NCBI RefSeq assembly: GCF_018687955.1
Contig: NZ_CP061309.1
Span: forward strand, 682,001-746,000
Length of the DNA stretch: 64,000 nt
From: Polynucleobacter ibericus
GTDB taxonomy: Bacteria; Pseudomonadota; Gammaproteobacteria; Burkholderiales; Burkholderiaceae
Direction of reading: 5' to 3'
Part shown: piece by piece, positions 53,286 through 58,094 of the stretch
Position numbering within the stretch: the first letter of the stretch is position 1
Layout of the letters: every line of letters begins with the position of its first letter
Translations under genes and position numbers: made by a program
The notes under the pieces: generated by a model
The model's input: only the letters and a program-made list of their open reading frames with translations
Database searches by the model: none
What the model was told of the DNA's origin: nothing

Positions 53286-53594
53286 TTAAGCCTTCTTAGC
53301 GTAAGCAGAGCACCAGCCTTTGCCAGCAACTTTCTTAGTGCCAAATAAAGAGCAGCCGCCAGTTGCATCGCCCACTTTACCTTGGAACAAAGCGCAGTTA
53401 TCGCACTCTTGACCGGTGGCATATTTAGGATACTTAGCTTTATCTACAGCAGTTGCAACTGCCTTGTATCCCAAAGCGGCAGCTTGTGGGTCAGTCTCAG
53501 TAACCATTGCTTGAGCTTGAACATTGCCATTCAATGCCAAAGTACAGGCACCAGCAGCAGACAAAATCATAAATTGACGACGACTATTTTTCAT
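53286..53594 (-). CDS. hip: High-potential iron-sulfur protein (HiPIP)
   Basis: Small periplasmic 4Fe-4S electron carrier. The 102-residue precursor has a twin-arginine signal (SRRQFMILSAAGA) and four cluster cysteines at about 64, 67, 81 and 95 (CDNC, GGC, GWC), spaced as in known HiPIPs. In sulfur oxidisers HiPIP can carry electrons from periplasmic oxidases such as Sox to the terminal oxidase; here it lies among sulfur genes but on the opposite strand, with its own upstream region shared with the rhodanese gene. Confidence 0.9.
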   Translation of the reverse strand: MKNSRRQFMILSAAGACTLALNGNVQAQAMVTETDPQAAALGYKAVATAVDKAKYPKYATGQECDNCALFQGKVGDATGGCSLFGTKKVAGKGWCSAYAKKA

Positions 53595-53727
53595 AAAGAC
53601 TCCAGTGTTCAGGTAGGTAAAAAGCTTTAATAACTAGCTATAGGGGATATTAAAGGGGATAACACCGCCAACAATAGGGGTTTCTCAGTATTAAGTTTAG
53701 TCAATCTTGGGCTCACACTACCTGAAT

Positions 53728-53751
53728 ATGCATAAATACGTATATAAGCAT
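53728..53751. promoter_or_regulatory. 24-bp imperfect palindrome upstream of the periplasmic rhodanese gene
   Basis: ATGCATAAATAC followed at once by GTATATAAGCAT forms a 12+12 inverted repeat with 10 of 12 positions paired, 43 bases upstream of the 53794 start. ArsR-family dimers bind such 12-bp half-site pairs. A related half site (ATGCATATATAA, 11 of 12 to the half-site consensus) occurs upstream of the ArsR/SoxR gene near 60003. Confidence 0.5.
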
Positions 53752-53793
53752 TTAAATCACTGTTTTACGACAAAATATTACATAGAGGGTTTT

Positions 53794-54378
53794 ATGAAAA
53801 AGTTTATTTTTCTTGGTCTGATGTTGTTTTCAGGCCTCGTATCAGCACAATCCGCTGCACCTGCAAGTCCTGAGCTACTGCAGATTATTGATAAATCTAC
53901 CAAATTTGTCGTTAACACCCCAAAAGGTCCGGTAGAAATCACTCGTGTGATGACGCCCTGTGCCAAGAATAAGGGCTGGCTGCAACCATTGATTCCAATC
54001 AAGGGTGTTGTGCCAGTTGATGAGATTGACGTATTGAATGCACTGAATGATAAAGACTCAATCGTGGTTGATATGCGAGTGGTTGATGACCGCGTTAAAG
54101 GAACAATTCCAGGCTCAGTCGGTATACCGTACACCGAAGTAGCGATGCGTATGGATGAGTTGGGTTGCAAAAAACCTGCTGCTGGTTCAACCAAATGGGA
54201 TTGCTCTAAAGCCAAGAAGGTTTATGCTTTCTGTAACGGCCCTGTTTGCCCGCAAAGCCCTATGGCAATGTCAGCGATGACACGCGACGGCTTCCCAGCA
54301 ACGAAGATTTATTACTATCGTGGCGGCATGTTGGATTGGGATGCATTGGGATTAACAACCGTAAAAGGTGAGTTCTAA
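53794..54378 (+). CDS. Periplasmic rhodanese-like protein with CNGPVC active loop
   Basis: The ATG at 53794 (GAGGG upstream) gives 194 residues with a signal peptide (MKKFIFLGLMLFSGLVSA). The rhodanese domain covers about 75-190: VVDMRVVDDRVKGTIPGSVGIPY, then the active-site cysteine Cys147 in YAFCNGPVCPQS with a second cysteine at 152 in the loop, and GGMLDW. The double-Cys loop (CxxxxC) suggests the persulfide can be resolved by the neighbour thiol, as in thiol-exchange rhodaneses. Sulfur donor unknown. A terminator follows; it is a single-gene unit between HiPIP (divergent) and the YeeE/YedE operon. Confidence 0.88.
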   Translation: MKKFIFLGLMLFSGLVSAQSAAPASPELLQIIDKSTKFVVNTPKGPVEITRVMTPCAKNKGWLQPLIPIKGVVPVDEIDVLNALNDKDSIVVDMRVVDDRVKGTIPGSVGIPYTEVAMRMDELGCKKPAAGSTKWDCSKAKKVYAFCNGPVCPQSPMAMSAMTRDGFPATKIYYYRGGMLDWDALGLTTVKGEF

Positions 54379-54522: not shown

Positions 54523-54553
54523 TTGACATTGCAATTTAAATTGATAATATATA
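54523..54553 (+). promoter_or_regulatory. Promoter of the YeeE/YedE sulfur operon
   Basis: A perfect TTGACA at 54523-54528 is followed after 14-19 bases by an AT-rich -10 zone (GATAAT at 54543, TAATAT at 54545, TATATA at 54548). The exact -10 cannot be chosen by eye; all choices are inside the palindrome at 54544-54567. Confidence 0.65.
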
Positions 54554-54567: not shown

Positions 54568-54593
54568 TTAAACCTTAAATGAGGTCAGTAAAG

Positions 54594-55121
54594 ATGGTGA
54601 ATAAAGCAGGGCAGGCTAAACCAGCGTCGTATATGAGCCCATTGCTAGCAGGCATCCTGCTTGGAATGGTTCTATTGACAACTTTTGTAATCACAGGTCA
54701 TGGGCTTGGGGCGACAGGATTTACTACCCGTTTGACTGCGTGGGTTGGAATGTATGTTGTACCAGCTGCTACTAATGCAAATGACTATTTGGGTGGAATG
54801 GTGGAAGAAGGCAAGCCTTTAAATGCTTGGATTACCTGGCAGGTGATCGGCGTGGCTTTAGGCGCATTGTTGTCTGCATTCCTAGCAAAGAGAATTCACA
54901 TTCAGATGGACGGCAAGAAGTTTCTCGGTGGCGCTAAGCGTCCGATGACGGCATTGTTTGGCGGTATCTTGGCAGGTTTTGGAGCACGTGTTGCTGCGGG
55001 TTGCACCAGTGGTCTTGGATTGTCTGGCGCCGCGGTACTCAGTTTGGCTGGATTTGCTTTCCTTGGTACATTCTTTGCGGTGGGTTTATTAGTAAGCCGC
55101 TTCTTGAAAGAGGAGAAATAA
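54594..55121 (+). CDS. YeeE/YedE-family half-size membrane protein A (sulfur-compound transport)
   Basis: The ATG at 54594 is chosen for GAGGT (54581-54585) eight bases before it; an ATG at 54579 overlaps that site. The 175-residue protein has about five transmembrane helices and the family core GAGARVAAGCTSG-like block GFGARVAAGCTSGLGLSG with the conserved cysteine. YeeE/TsuA proteins import thiosulfate; half-size pairs (PmpA/PmpB type) occur in sulfur operons and with BigR. It pairs with the next gene, one base downstream. Thiosulfate or sulfane-sulfur uptake is inferred. Confidence 0.85.
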   Translation: MVNKAGQAKPASYMSPLLAGILLGMVLLTTFVITGHGLGATGFTTRLTAWVGMYVVPAATNANDYLGGMVEEGKPLNAWITWQVIGVALGALLSAFLAKRIHIQMDGKKFLGGAKRPMTALFGGILAGFGARVAAGCTSGLGLSGAAVLSLAGFAFLGTFFAVGLLVSRFLKEEK

Positions 55122-55122
55122 G

Positions 55123-55689
55123 ATGAGCGAAATTCTTTCAGGACTTCTTTTGGGTGCAGCCTTTGGTTTTGTTTTGGAGCGCGCGGGTTTTGGCAATCCT
55201 AATAAATTAACTGGCCAATTTCGACTAACAGATTGGTCTGTGTTTAAGGTCATGTTCACCGCTATTGTGTTTGCTGCAGTTGGGCTCATGGTTTTAGAAA
55301 AGGCTGGGTTGGTGGACGCTGGTAGTTTGTTTGTGCCTCCAGCATTCTTGGGCGCAGCTGCATTGGGTGGAGCGCTTGTTGGTGCTGGCTTCGCAATTGG
55401 TGGGTATTGCCCTGGAACATCAGTAGTTGGCTTAATGTCTGGTCGCATTGACGCAGCAATCTTTTTGCTTGGCCTGCTTTTAGGCACCGTAGTTTTTGCT
55501 GTTATTTACCCAGAGATAGAGGTCTTAACTACTTTAGGTGAATTCGCTAAAGCGGATTCATTGCCAGATGCTTTCAATATCTCAGATTGGTCGATTGATA
55601 TCGGAATGATTGTCGCGGCCGTTGGTGTTTTTGTCTTGGGCTCTTGGATGGAAAAGAAATCCAAAGGCCCCGTTAGTTCTCAAGCTTAA
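55123..55689 (+). CDS. YeeE/YedE-family half-size membrane protein B (sulfur-compound transport)
   Basis: A 188-residue membrane protein with about five helices. Conserved core GAGFAIGGYCPGTSVVGL carries the cysteine-containing GGYCPGT motif of the second YeeE half, complementary to the GCTSG motif of the first protein. Together the two would rebuild the pseudo-symmetric pore of full-length YeeE/TsuA, where thiosulfate is relayed along cysteines. The start follows the previous stop after one base, indicating coupled synthesis. Confidence 0.85.
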   Translation: MSEILSGLLLGAAFGFVLERAGFGNPNKLTGQFRLTDWSVFKVMFTAIVFAAVGLMVLEKAGLVDAGSLFVPPAFLGAAALGGALVGAGFAIGGYCPGTSVVGLMSGRIDAAIFLLGLLLGTVVFAVIYPEIEVLTTLGEFAKADSLPDAFNISDWSIDIGMIVAAVGVFVLGSWMEKKSKGPVSSQA

Positions 55690-55706: not shown

Positions 55707-55940
55707 ATGTCGAAAAAATCTACTGTAGCTGCATTGGCACTTGCCTTAGCAGGTTTATCGGCGGCTCCACTTGCACTTTCAGCTGATGCGCCTGCGAATC
55801 CAACAAGTGCAGAGCAAAAAAATCCTTGTGGCCCTAAAAAAGAAGCCTCCAATCCTTGTGGTCCAGCAAAGAAAAAAGCAACCAACCCTTGTGGCCCTTC
55901 AAATCCTTGCGGCCCAAAGAAGCGTAAGGCAGCGGAGTAA
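55707..55940 (+). CDS. Secreted NPCGP-repeat small protein, function unknown
   Basis: A 77-residue precursor. A signal peptide runs to about residue 26 (LALSA then DAP). The mature 51 residues are low-complexity Lys/Ala/Pro with four NPCGP pentapeptides, placing cysteines at about 41, 51, 62 and 68; the last two repeats are separated by one Ser. There are no other Cys, no aromatic residues and a basic tail (KKRKAAE). SD AAGGAAA precedes the ATG. The gene follows the transporter pair. I know no assigned function; a thiol/persulfide or metal-carrying role is a guess from cysteine count and neighbours. Confidence 0.8.
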   Translation: MSKKSTVAALALALAGLSAAPLALSADAPANPTSAEQKNPCGPKKEASNPCGPAKKKATNPCGPSNPCGPKKRKAAE

Positions 55941-55947
55941 CTTTTAA

Positions 55948-56574
55948 ATGCTCGCCCAATCTAATCTCTGGTTAGCAGCGCAGAAGTTGGCAAACATTCA
56001 AATGCAGTACGCAAAATCCAGACGTACTTTGAATGAAGCTGCTTTAGGCGGCGCTAGGGATTTTGTTGAGTGGCAACACTATCCGAGCAATGATTTGGTT
56101 GATGTGAATAGTGGCTATGAGTTTTATTACCATGCGCATTCAGCTGATGAAATGCCCAATGGAGAGCATGGCCATTTTCATGTAATTAAACGGGATGCAG
56201 AGAGCTTTCATCACCTTGTTGGTATTTCATTAGATCAAAAGGGTTTGCCAACCCGATTATTTACAACGAATGAGTGGGTCACAGGCGAGACAATGATTGA
56301 TTCAGCGGCGACCATTAAATTCGCAAAAGAATTTGAGATGGTCGTAAAGGGTCGTATGGCACCCGTAAGCAATTGGGTTAGCGCACTTATTCAATTATTT
56401 AGCGCAGAAATTGAAAAATTGATTGTGGATCGCGATCAAAAAATTAGATTACTAGATGTCGAATACGGCAATCGTGAGATTACGCTGAATTCTAGAAAGC
56501 ATCATGTTTTAACGGAGTGCAAGATTGATCTACTAAGTCGTCTTTCAGAAAATTTATTGGCAGTTAATTCTTAA
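55948..56574 (+). CDS. Conserved hypothetical protein with EHGHFH motif (DUF6969-like?)
   Basis: A 208-residue soluble-looking protein without signal peptide or membrane helix. A helical N-terminus (1-42) precedes a compact block rich in aromatic and histidine residues: YYHAH (60-64) and EHGHFHV (73-79), potential metal ligands His62, His64, Glu73, His74, His76, His78. Two further helical parts follow. I associate the motif tentatively with DUF6969; I cannot verify. It is 7 bases after the NPCGP gene and 9 before the rhodanese, so is firmly in the operon. Function unknown; the motif could bind iron, zinc or a persulfide-oxidising metal. Confidence 0.72.
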   Translation: MLAQSNLWLAAQKLANIQMQYAKSRRTLNEAALGGARDFVEWQHYPSNDLVDVNSGYEFYYHAHSADEMPNGEHGHFHVIKRDAESFHHLVGISLDQKGLPTRLFTTNEWVTGETMIDSAATIKFAKEFEMVVKGRMAPVSNWVSALIQLFSAEIEKLIVDRDQKIRLLDVEYGNREITLNSRKHHVLTECKIDLLSRLSENLLAVNS

Positions 56575-56583
56575 GGGGTAGAA

Positions 56584-57561
56584 ATGAAAAAGATTCAATG
56601 GGCAGTAGCTCTTGTCTTGGCTAGCATGGTAAGTTTCGTGCAGGCTATTACATTGCCTGGGCCAGTGGTTAGTGCTGAATGGCTTGCTGCAAACCAATCT
56701 GAAGTGCAAATTTTGGAGGTAAGAGGTGATGTAGCTAGCTATGTACGTAGCCCTGAGTTTGAAGTCGATAAAAAGACTGGAAAAAAGATGCTAGTAGAGG
56801 TTGGTGGTCATATATCAGACTCTAGCTTGTTGGACTTTAAAATGGTTAGAGCCGATCGCATGATTGATGGGAAAAAGATTAAATACTTGATTCCTGAAAA
56901 AGCAGATTTTGAAAAAATTATTCAAGCTGTTGGTATTAGCTCTGAAAAGCCTATCGTTTTGGTACCAATTGGGTTGGATATTTCCGATGTGGACGAAGCC
57001 TTACGAGCCTATTGGCAGTTCAAAGTTTATGGGGAGGACAATATTGCCGTTTTAGATGGCGGTATGGCAGGCTGGCTTGCTGAAGGTCGTGATTATGTAG
57101 TTAGCCCCTCAATCAAGACCGGCGGAAACTGGACTGCAAAAGCTGAACGCAAAGAGTTGATTGCCAATTCAGAGCAAGTAGCCTCTGCATCAAAAAGCGG
57201 TAAGGTGAATTTGATTGACGCTCGTCAACCAGCGCAATTTTTTGGCTTAAGTAAACGTGACTATGTAGGTGCTTATGGACACATTGCCGGAGCAAAAGAA
57301 CTAGCCCCAGAGTTGTTGGCAAAAACTTCAAAGGGTGCGCTGTATTTTTGGGATAAAAATACCTATAACGCATTGTTGACAGCAAACGGCATTAATCCAA
57401 AATCACCAGCTATTAGTTATTGCAATAGCGGTCATTTGGCAGCTGGCGGTTGGTTTGTATTGTCAGAGCTAGTGGGTAATAAATCAACCAAGTTGTATGA
57501 CGGCTCTTTATATCTTTGGACTCTTGAAGGTCGTCCATTAGTAGGCGTTCCTCTTAATTAA
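56584..57561 (+). CDS. Exported two-domain rhodanese-family sulfurtransferase
   Basis: A 325-residue precursor with signal peptide (MKKIQWAVALVLASMVSFVQA). Two rhodanese domains: the first (about 25-175) lacks an active-site cysteine at the expected loop (ILVPIGLDISD where Cys would be), so it is structural; the second (about 195-320) has Cys280 in SYCNSGHLAAGGW, the catalytic loop, preceded by NLIDARQPAQFFG. Matches thiosulfate:thiol sulfurtransferases of the TST/YnjE type. In the operon it would move sulfane sulfur onto an acceptor thiol, perhaps the NPCGP protein or glutathione. Confidence 0.88.
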   Translation: MKKIQWAVALVLASMVSFVQAITLPGPVVSAEWLAANQSEVQILEVRGDVASYVRSPEFEVDKKTGKKMLVEVGGHISDSSLLDFKMVRADRMIDGKKIKYLIPEKADFEKIIQAVGISSEKPIVLVPIGLDISDVDEALRAYWQFKVYGEDNIAVLDGGMAGWLAEGRDYVVSPSIKTGGNWTAKAERKELIANSEQVASASKSGKVNLIDARQPAQFFGLSKRDYVGAYGHIAGAKELAPELLAKTSKGALYFWDKNTYNALLTANGINPKSPAISYCNSGHLAAGGWFVLSELVGNKSTKLYDGSLYLWTLEGRPLVGVPLN

Positions 57562-57572
57562 GGTTGCGTGCT

Positions 57573-57890
57573 ATGTCTCTTTCTGTCACCAACATCAACC
57601 TGCAAAAGATGCAGTCATCAGCAGATGATGCCTGTCGCTTGATGAAGGTTCTTTCTAATCGGGATCGGATGATGTTGTTGTGTCAAATCAGTCAAGGGGA
57701 GAAGTGCGTCGGTGAGTTGGAGGCATGCCTTGATATTCAGCAGCCAACCTTATCGCAGCAGTTAACCGTTTTAAGGAAAGAGGCGTTGGTAAAAACCAGA
57801 AGAGAGGGCAAGCAAATTTATTACTCGCATTCCAAACATGTTGCCTTGGAAGTGATGAAAGTGCTTTATCAGAATTACTGTAGTAAATAA
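57573..57890 (+). CDS. bigR: ArsR-family persulfide-sensing repressor (BigR/SqrR/YgaV type)
   Basis: The ATG at 57573 has AAGG upstream; a TTG at 57564 is possible. The 105-residue winged helix has the helix-turn-helix QQPTLSQQLTVLRKEAL and the wing REGKQIYYS. Cys37 (RMMLLC) and Cys103 (QNYC near the end) are 66 residues apart, the spacing of the sensing pair in BigR (42/108) and SqrR (41/107), which form a disulfide or tetrasulfide with reactive sulfur and leave DNA. The operon's own palindrome at 54544 is its likely target, giving autoregulation. One more Cys is at 21 and others at 45 and 52 outside the pair. Confidence 0.9.
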   Translation: MSLSVTNINLQKMQSSADDACRLMKVLSNRDRMMLLCQISQGEKCVGELEACLDIQQPTLSQQLTVLRKEALVKTRREGKQIYYSHSKHVALEVMKVLYQNYCSK

Positions 57891-57908: not shown

Positions 57909-58094
57909 ATGAAATGCAATGTTGGCAGTATTGATCGTATGTTACGCATGGTAGTGGGATTGGTATTAATTGGTCTGGCTGCAACTGGCACTGTTGGTGT
58001 CTGGGGCTGGATCGGTGTAGTGCCTCTTGCAACGGGTCTATTTAGATTCTGCCCAGCCTATCCACTATTGGGAATTAATACTTGCGGCAAATAG
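57909..58094 (+). CDS. DUF2892 small membrane protein
   Basis: A 61-residue protein with two transmembrane helices (RMVVGLVLIGLAATG and GWIGVVPLATGLF) and Cys at positions 3, 48 and 58 (MKCNVG at the start; CPAYPLLGINTCGK at the end), matching the DUF2892 domain that is fused to rhodanese in E. coli YgaP. It is the last gene of the sulfur operon. Function unknown, but its repeated pairing with rhodaneses implies sulfur chemistry at the membrane. A hairpin follows. Confidence 0.88.
   Translation: MKCNVGSIDRMLRMVVGLVLIGLAATGTVGVWGWIGVVPLATGLFRFCPAYPLLGINTCGK

Follow-up and report, generated by a model that had tools for sequence, protein, structure and literature searches.

The question raised by this stretch of the Polynucleobacter ibericus genome (64,000 nucleotides, here called the window) was whether a very small open reading frame lying among sulfur genes encodes a real secreted peptide and, if so, what such a peptide and its neighbours might do. 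The predicted product reads MSKKSTVAALALALAGLSAAPLALSA followed by DAPANPTSAEQKNPCGPKKEASNPCGPAKKKATNPCGPSNPCGPKKRKAAE, the junction being the signal peptide cleavage site as judged by eye, and a Shine-Dalgarno-like AAAGGAAA stands upstream of the ATG. The first-pass annotation of this DNA had described a signal peptide and a 51-residue mature part with four cysteines, all in NPCGP motifs, and this description was borne out: the only cysteines are residues 41, 51, 62 and 68, each within an NPCGP, and not one of 200,000 shuffled versions of this part contained even two NPCGP. The four cysteines and the four prolines preceding them were invariant in 20 distinct relatives of 77 codons, with both Cys codons in use, and pairwise-pooled dN/dS was ~0.05 for the whole ORF and ~0.03 for the mature part, synonymous sites being near saturation. 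The peptide is under strong purifying selection, and because the cysteines are invariant with both codons and the dN/dS is low, a spurious ORF is excluded. The residues that varied were the one following each Cys (G, A or S) and the first N (N, K or S).

The gene is single-copy in its own 1.9-Mb, one-contig genome. A single-query search with the peptide found strong relatives (E < 1e-20) in 11 of 37 same-genus genomes, its own included, and matched 24 of 50 other genomes only at E-values of 0.002 to 1, which we treated as noise. No family matched it in Pfam (E up to 0.1) or NCBIfam (E up to 1), and a search of viral contigs gave no relative. Metallothioneins are marked by CxC and CxxC clusters; we rejected this assignment for the peptide, as its cysteines are spaced 6 to 11 residues apart.

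The peptide is encoded by the third gene in a run of seven (ST1, ST2, the peptide, a DUF6969 protein, a periplasmic rhodanese, a SqrR/BigR-like repressor and a YgaP-like membrane protein; Table 1), with intergenic gaps of 1, 17, 7, 9, 2 and 18 bases. It had been described as lying between sulfur transporters and a periplasmic rhodanese; both do flank it, but the DUF6969 gene between it and the rhodanese had been overlooked. Sigma-70-like sites numbered 6, against a mean of 7.9 for shuffled sequence, and the promoter and terminator scans gave results at chance level. Both transporter proteins scored above the cut-off of the Sulf_transp profile PF04143, ST1 over positions 175-306 and ST2 over positions 2-157 of 310, with ST2 also matching PF20398; since ST1 corresponds to the C-terminal part of Sulf_transp and ST2 to its N-terminal half, they resemble a split YeeE. 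ST1 weakly matched TsuA structures (E 0.025), and ST2 matched nothing in the PDB at E 0.1. We rejected the name TsuA for either protein: on the NCBIfam TsuA models, which have cut-offs of 400 and 645, ST1 reached 33.9 bits and ST2 33.3 bits.

In the rhodanese the catalytic cysteine, C280, lies within YCNSGHLA, and the structural matches are thiosulfate sulfurtransferases. The only cysteine of ST1, of ST2 and of the rhodanese was kept in 49 of 49, 52 of 52 and 55 of 55 alignment rows, respectively, that have a residue there. The best PDB matches of the ArsR-family repressor include 6o8l-6o8o and 3pqk, with the columns of both sensor cysteines aligned, and the repressor probably reports persulfide to the seven-gene operon. 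Slightly downstream lies a SoxC-like molybdopterin oxidoreductase gene. Just upstream we noted a HiPIP gene (53286-53594, minus strand) and a second secreted rhodanese gene (53707-54378), found in 9 and 6, respectively, of the 80 loci described below (the best 80 of at least 554) and in Polynucleobacter loci only. In the available portion of PMC3308952 a Polynucleobacter genome is noted to have a putative rhodanese besides sox genes, with no mention of the NPC-peptide operon.

Table 1. Features of the operon, in positions of the window
Feature	Position	Strand	Remarks
Sigma-70-like promoter match	54523..54550	+	TTGACA-16-TAATAT; just upstream of operon; suggestive only
ST1, half-size YeeE/YedE-type transporter	54579..55121	+	one Cys (C142); Sulf_transp C-terminal part
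ST2, half-size YeeE/YedE-type transporter	55123..55689	+	one Cys (C96); Sulf_transp N-terminal half
NPCGP repeat peptide, candidate RiPP-like precursor	55707..55940	+	77 aa; stop codon included in coordinates
Signal peptide of NPCGP peptide	55707..55784	+	26 residues; cleavage site read by eye
NPCGP repeat 1	55821..55835	+	residues 39-43
NPCGP repeat 2	55851..55865	+	residues 49-53
NPCGP repeat 3	55884..55898	+	residues 60-64
NPCGP repeat 4	55902..55916	+	residues 66-70
DUF6969 protein, candidate peptide-modifying metalloenzyme	55948..56574	+	PF22308, E 2.3e-51; no signal peptide by eye
Two-domain rhodanese, thiosulfate sulfurtransferase type	56584..57561	+	PF00581; N-terminal signal peptide by eye
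ArsR-family repressor, SqrR/BigR type	57564..57890	+	both sensor Cys positions aligned
YgaP-like transmembrane protein	57909..58094	+	PF11127; last of run

The partner that had been missed may be more important than the peptide itself. The DUF6969 protein scored 174.7 bits against PF22308 (cut-off 27) over residues 10-193. In an alignment (A2) of 51 rows, consisting of the window and 50 of the 80 loci with the remainder dropped by hand as near-copies, 17 columns were invariant, including H62, H64, E73, H74, H76, H78, H89 and D163, and H44, D49 and D52 were nearly so; since the loci were retrieved through the motifs EHGHFH or NxWVTG, the invariance of the residues in those motifs is partly a product of selection. 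E73 and H78 were replaced in three Pfam matches from the sample of the order described below (L046-L048), in which the other HxH residues stayed. This conserved, His-rich set of residues looks like a metal site, and in an AlphaFold2 model (pLDDT 95.3) the histidines map to three consecutive predicted strands or their immediate vicinity, an arrangement in which they may cluster around a metal. Searches for solved or viral relatives gave nothing usable, the best results being E 0.14 (Foldseek against the PDB), Z 3.6 (VIA), E 0.029 (viral library) and E 0.32 (profile against PDB sequences), though a new fold does not follow from this, and an hhalign comparison with one MNIO protein returned a probability of 1%. 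With neither a solved relative nor similarity to MNIO, the catalysis proposed below is a guess from the residues.

For the gene neighbourhood we used 80 loci, the best of at least 554 relatives, retrieved by a motif scan of genome contigs with the DUF6969 alignment and including ten named Polynucleobacter and ten Azospirillum; genes in them were called with our own ORF script rather than a gene finder. Having been taken from the top of at least 554, the loci lean towards the branch that carries the transporter genes, and as they were fetched by DUF6969 its constancy in them is by construction; every count out of 80 below carries this scope. Judged by DUF6969, Polynucleobacter supplies the closest named relatives among the matches listed. 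An ORF with three or more NPC within 60 residues occurred in 56 of the 80 loci, against none of 80 reversed-sequence controls. We added seven reduced forms of the peptide by hand, with two NPC (L093, L094, L096 and L113), one NPC (L097) or APCAPK...HPCGL (L125 and L127), and with these counted a same-strand peptide starting no more than 700 nt upstream of DUF6969 was found in 58 of the 80; longer NPC proteins end just upstream of DUF6969 in L105 and L126. Both transporter halves lay upstream on the same strand in 50 of the best 80, and all 50 had the peptide (five in reduced form). The rhodanese was downstream in 48 of these 50, and the complete order ST1-ST2-peptide-DUF6969-rhodanese was kept in 48 of the 80, a five-gene unit with representatives among named beta- and gammaproteobacterial strains. 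Two arrangements vary the theme: an unsplit Sulf_transp gene followed by the short APCAPK...HPCGL peptide and then DUF6969 (L125), and a peptide-DUF6969 pair kept together nearly 2 kb from ST1-ST2-rhodanese (L062). The 45 full peptides from transporter context had 195 of 197 cysteines preceded by Pro, with four cysteines in 37, and we aligned 20 hand-picked mature NPC peptides separately (alignment A3).

Two doubts voiced beforehand, that homologs might be scattered away from sulfur genes and that repeat number might drift with loss of cysteines, were checked; the first did not apply here and the second proved half justified. The link to sulfur genes stood in the transporter branch, where all 50 ST1-ST2 loci (of the best 80 of at least 554) have the peptide, but a second branch has cytochromes as neighbours and, in some genomes, genes of bufferin or mercury type, so that a role with metals is possible. 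Repeat number does drift, from 1 to 11 in transporter loci (the single NPC being in the same operon, in L097) and to 31 in L129, and a few units lack Cys, namely NPGAAR (L033), NPGAAK (L118) and NPSAVK (L210), and these belong to the second branch. On a DUF6969 tree of 83 rows the transporter/rhodanese context required two changes against 22.4 in shuffles, a difference to which near-copies contribute. DUF6969 stood without an NPC peptide and without an ST1, ST2 or Rhod2 match in 15 of the best 80 loci, ten of them Azospirillum (L108-L112, L114, L121, L122, L124 and L128), and one of the 15 (L099) has another rhodanese gene nearby. Conversely, DUF6969 accompanied NPC repeats without a transporter-half or rhodanese match in L105, L116, L118 and L126.

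In profile searches for NPC-repeat genes, a check of the kind that the first-pass annotation had proposed, DUF6969 was present in the same genome in 13 of 16, 10 of 17 and 8 of 11 cases. The first of these figures comes from 300 genomes sampled within the order (PF22308 in 19, the NPC profile at E up to 1e-4 in 16), the second from a phylum sample of 398 genomes (PF22308 in 19, the NPC profile in 17) and the third from a class sample of 350 genomes, in which the NPC profile matched 12 and the own genome was set aside; all eight class-sample pairs lay within ~1.1 kb. The window's genome, G000, and G034 are common to the order and phylum samples. Hypergeometric p-values (7e-16 for the order, 6e-11 for the phylum) ignore relatedness and are not relied on. 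These samples test the pairing with DUF6969, and the transporter linkage rests on the loci fetched by DUF6969. We retained among the 16 an NPC match in G202 that we judged spurious on reading its frame, and in the 19 and the 13 a DUF6969 match in G047 that is a 36-position fragment; in G167 and G413 the NPC and DUF6969 matches lie on different contigs. The conserved two-gene unit inside this sulfur operon is real, and we found no description of an NPCGP or NPC-repeat peptide with DUF6969 among the open-licence papers covered by our searches.

NPC proteins in genomes with no DUF6969 match were found in G072, G217, G354, G384, G453, G488, G573, G586, G607, G756, G760 and G994. G573 and G586 are less than 70% complete; G217, G354, G384, G607 and G760 are 99-100% complete and had neither a DUF6969 nor an MNIO match, so that modification is not obligatory for all NPC proteins. 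Such genomes, together with the Azospirillum loci that have DUF6969 and no peptide, fit a reading in which the peptide is a plain persulfide thiol carrier that DUF6969 leaves untouched, handling instead the imported sulfur in the cytosol. The pairings in L105, L116, L118 and L126 speak against it, since they make the peptide, and not sulfur import, the thing that DUF6969 is tied to, and we regard this separation of the two genes' roles as quite unlikely.

A peptide that is worked on by its neighbour has a precedent in the bufferins and the Buf_EGKCG/oxazolins, RiPPs modified by MNIO (DUF692) enzymes, which according to the available text of PMC12452194 share with our unit a Sec signal peptide, Cys motifs and an adjoining metalloenzyme-like gene; in the EGKCG type of that text the Cys motif is repeated in variable number, like that of the NPC peptides. 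The NPCGP peptide differs in having DUF6969 as its partner, NPC[G/A]P as its motif and a sulfur transporter and a rhodanese as neighbours. It has the Sec signal peptide (by eye) and Cys-motif core of a bufferin-type precursor; its own genome gave no MNIO (PF05114) match and the peptide no Buf1 (DUF2282) match, and for want of these two we did not file it as a bufferin.

The MNIO search covered 41 genomes chosen for their NPC or DUF6969 matches; MNIO was present in 4 of 15, 5 of 15 and 6 of 11, close to NPC or DUF6969 in five. A bufferin-type cluster of MNIO, DUF2063 and DoxX genes follows the NPC peptide of G072, which gave no DUF6969 match; G072 is the single genome with NPC and MNIO in the absence of DUF6969, and a plasmid search with its NPC peptide found no relative. 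In G670 a DUF2282 (Buf1)-MNIO-DUF2063-DoxX series is followed by a KCGA-repeat protein with a signal peptide and then by DUF6969, in G832 MNIO comes about half a kb after the NPC peptide-DUF6969 pair, and G150 and G675 each have an MNIO gene no more than ~8 kb away. Other Cys repeats also stand directly upstream of DUF6969, such as KCAP (G155) and PCVKTKAGG (L038). Genes of the FGE-sulfatase family were seen near DUF6969 (L126:3545-4480 and L099:4984-5892), and FGE-sulfatase fusions occur among bufferins in the available part of PMC12452194. By analogy with the bufferin clusters, as far as that part describes them, what all these arrangements share is a secreted Cys-repeat protein with a candidate metalloenzyme that has no signal peptide of its own. 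We put forward with some hesitation, and at slightly less than an even chance, that secreted (N)PC[G/A] repeats receive a Cys-centred modification from DUF6969, which would then be a metalloenzyme family so far unrecognised, acting on peptides in parallel to MNIO; in one branch the modified product would be a dedicated sulfane-sulfur shuttle feeding a split YeeE.

Loci outside the transporter context have repeats such as NPCAAK and NPCNPC, and in 9 of 10 proteins scanned, as likewise in L105, these are attached to a SoxA/TsdA-type cytochrome c domain (the nine also matching CCP_MauG). SoxA/TsdA-like c-type cytochromes with NPC repeats, often at both ends, were noted at L035:93-839, L140:1501-2157, L141:782-1483, L145:1752-2273, L177:1402-2010, L178:1471-2316 and L183:1471-2112. 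Cytochrome P460 domains fused to long NPC-repeat regions were noted at L118:4051-5109 and L126:4689-5759, and a P460 match on the NPC protein of L173 was below cut-off. By Pfam, DsbD_TM, multihaem-cytochrome and thioredoxin genes adjoin NPC genes in L187 and in part in L188 (DsbD_TM in both, thioredoxin in L187), and similar genes were recognised by eye in L191, L201 and L243. With the nine cytochrome fusions, these neighbours would suit a redox or electron-transfer module in which thioredoxin/DsbD-type reductants and c-type cytochromes would be the cycling partners of the NPC thiols, with the sulfur branch as an offshoot; however, the window's operon has no DsbD, thioredoxin or cytochrome gene, the SoxA/TsdA-type domains point to thiosulfate chemistry, and such a module seems to us very improbable.

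Some of the second branch has mercury-type neighbours: at L191:4748-7652 MerT, MerR-family and Pyr_redox_2 genes (the last mercuric-reductase-like by eye) stand beside DUF6969 and an NPC peptide, and MerR-family genes stand beside DUF6969 at L199:247-705 and L201:2120-2554. Because of these neighbours and of the bufferins, the main rival to a sulfur carrier is a soft-metal buffer, in which the peptide, whether modified by DUF6969 or not, would chelate periplasmic Cu(I), Hg(II) or similar as bufferins do. Its sulfur neighbours would then be explained by a link between thiol and metal stress. Metals fit the second branch, with its cytochromes and, in some genomes, mercury-type genes, as well as or better than sulfur does; MNIO clusters lie near NPC or DUF6969 in the five genomes named above, and the available text of PMC12452194 places bufferins in copper stress and MerC fusions in mercury clusters, to which the FGE-sulfatase genes of L126 and L099 may be added. 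Against this, the sulfur transporter and rhodanese are constant in the transporter branch (48 of the 80 loci that are the best of at least 554), the families matched by the seven operon genes include none for metal resistance, and the single NPC of the L097 operon would be poor for chelation. On balance we consider metal buffering by the window's peptide unlikely, if not strongly so.

The reading we prefer is that the peptide is a RiPP-like secreted Cys peptide, modified by DUF6969 in the cytosol and serving here as a periplasmic sulfane-sulfur carrier, to which we would give a little less than an even chance. The NPC-repeat peptide would be the secreted product of a two-gene unit and DUF6969 its partner, a metal-dependent cytosolic enzyme that would work on the peptide as its substrate before Sec export, most likely at the Cys of the (N)PC[G/A] motif, much as bufferins are worked on by MNIO enzymes. 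With the rhodanese on one side and the split YeeE-type importer on the other, the mature peptide of the transporter branch would act as a flexible, multi-site carrier of periplasmic sulfane sulfur, and the system would be under a persulfide-sensing repressor. That its sites may carry persulfide, as the first-pass annotation had suggested, we infer from the neighbours, and the support for this idea is contextual. SoxY, or SoxYZ, is a sulfane-sulfur carrier of the periplasm with a flexible Cys-bearing segment that ends in GGCGG, and the peptide would resemble it as a flexible Cys-bearing segment carrying periplasmic sulfane sulfur, while differing in having no Pfam match, four sites and no GGCGG end.

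The transporters can be compared with the SoxT/TsuA (YeeE-YedE) importers treated in PMC11582611, of which part was available: together ST1 and ST2 cover most of the Sulf_transp profile and have a conserved Cys each, but the window's transporter is split into two half-size genes. The importer partners given in that part are TusA, a DsbA-like protein, SoxS and a cytoplasmic rhodanese, with no Cys-repeat peptide among them, and the DsbA-like and SoxS proteins are discussed there as possible presenters of sulfur to SoxT-type importers. The BigR-controlled yeeE-yedE-pdo2 operon of Acinetobacter baumannii, as described in the accessible part of PMC7315123, likewise has two YeeE/YedE genes and a persulfide-sensing ArsR-type repressor; where it has a persulfide dioxygenase, the window has the peptide, DUF6969 and a periplasmic rhodanese instead. 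If our reading is true, DUF6969 would be a second enzyme family for the recently found signal-peptide-bearing Cys peptides, the peptide would offer an answer to the question raised by the SoxT work of what presents periplasmic sulfane sulfur to YeeE-type importers, and RiPP-like peptides would be seen to be used in sulfur trafficking.
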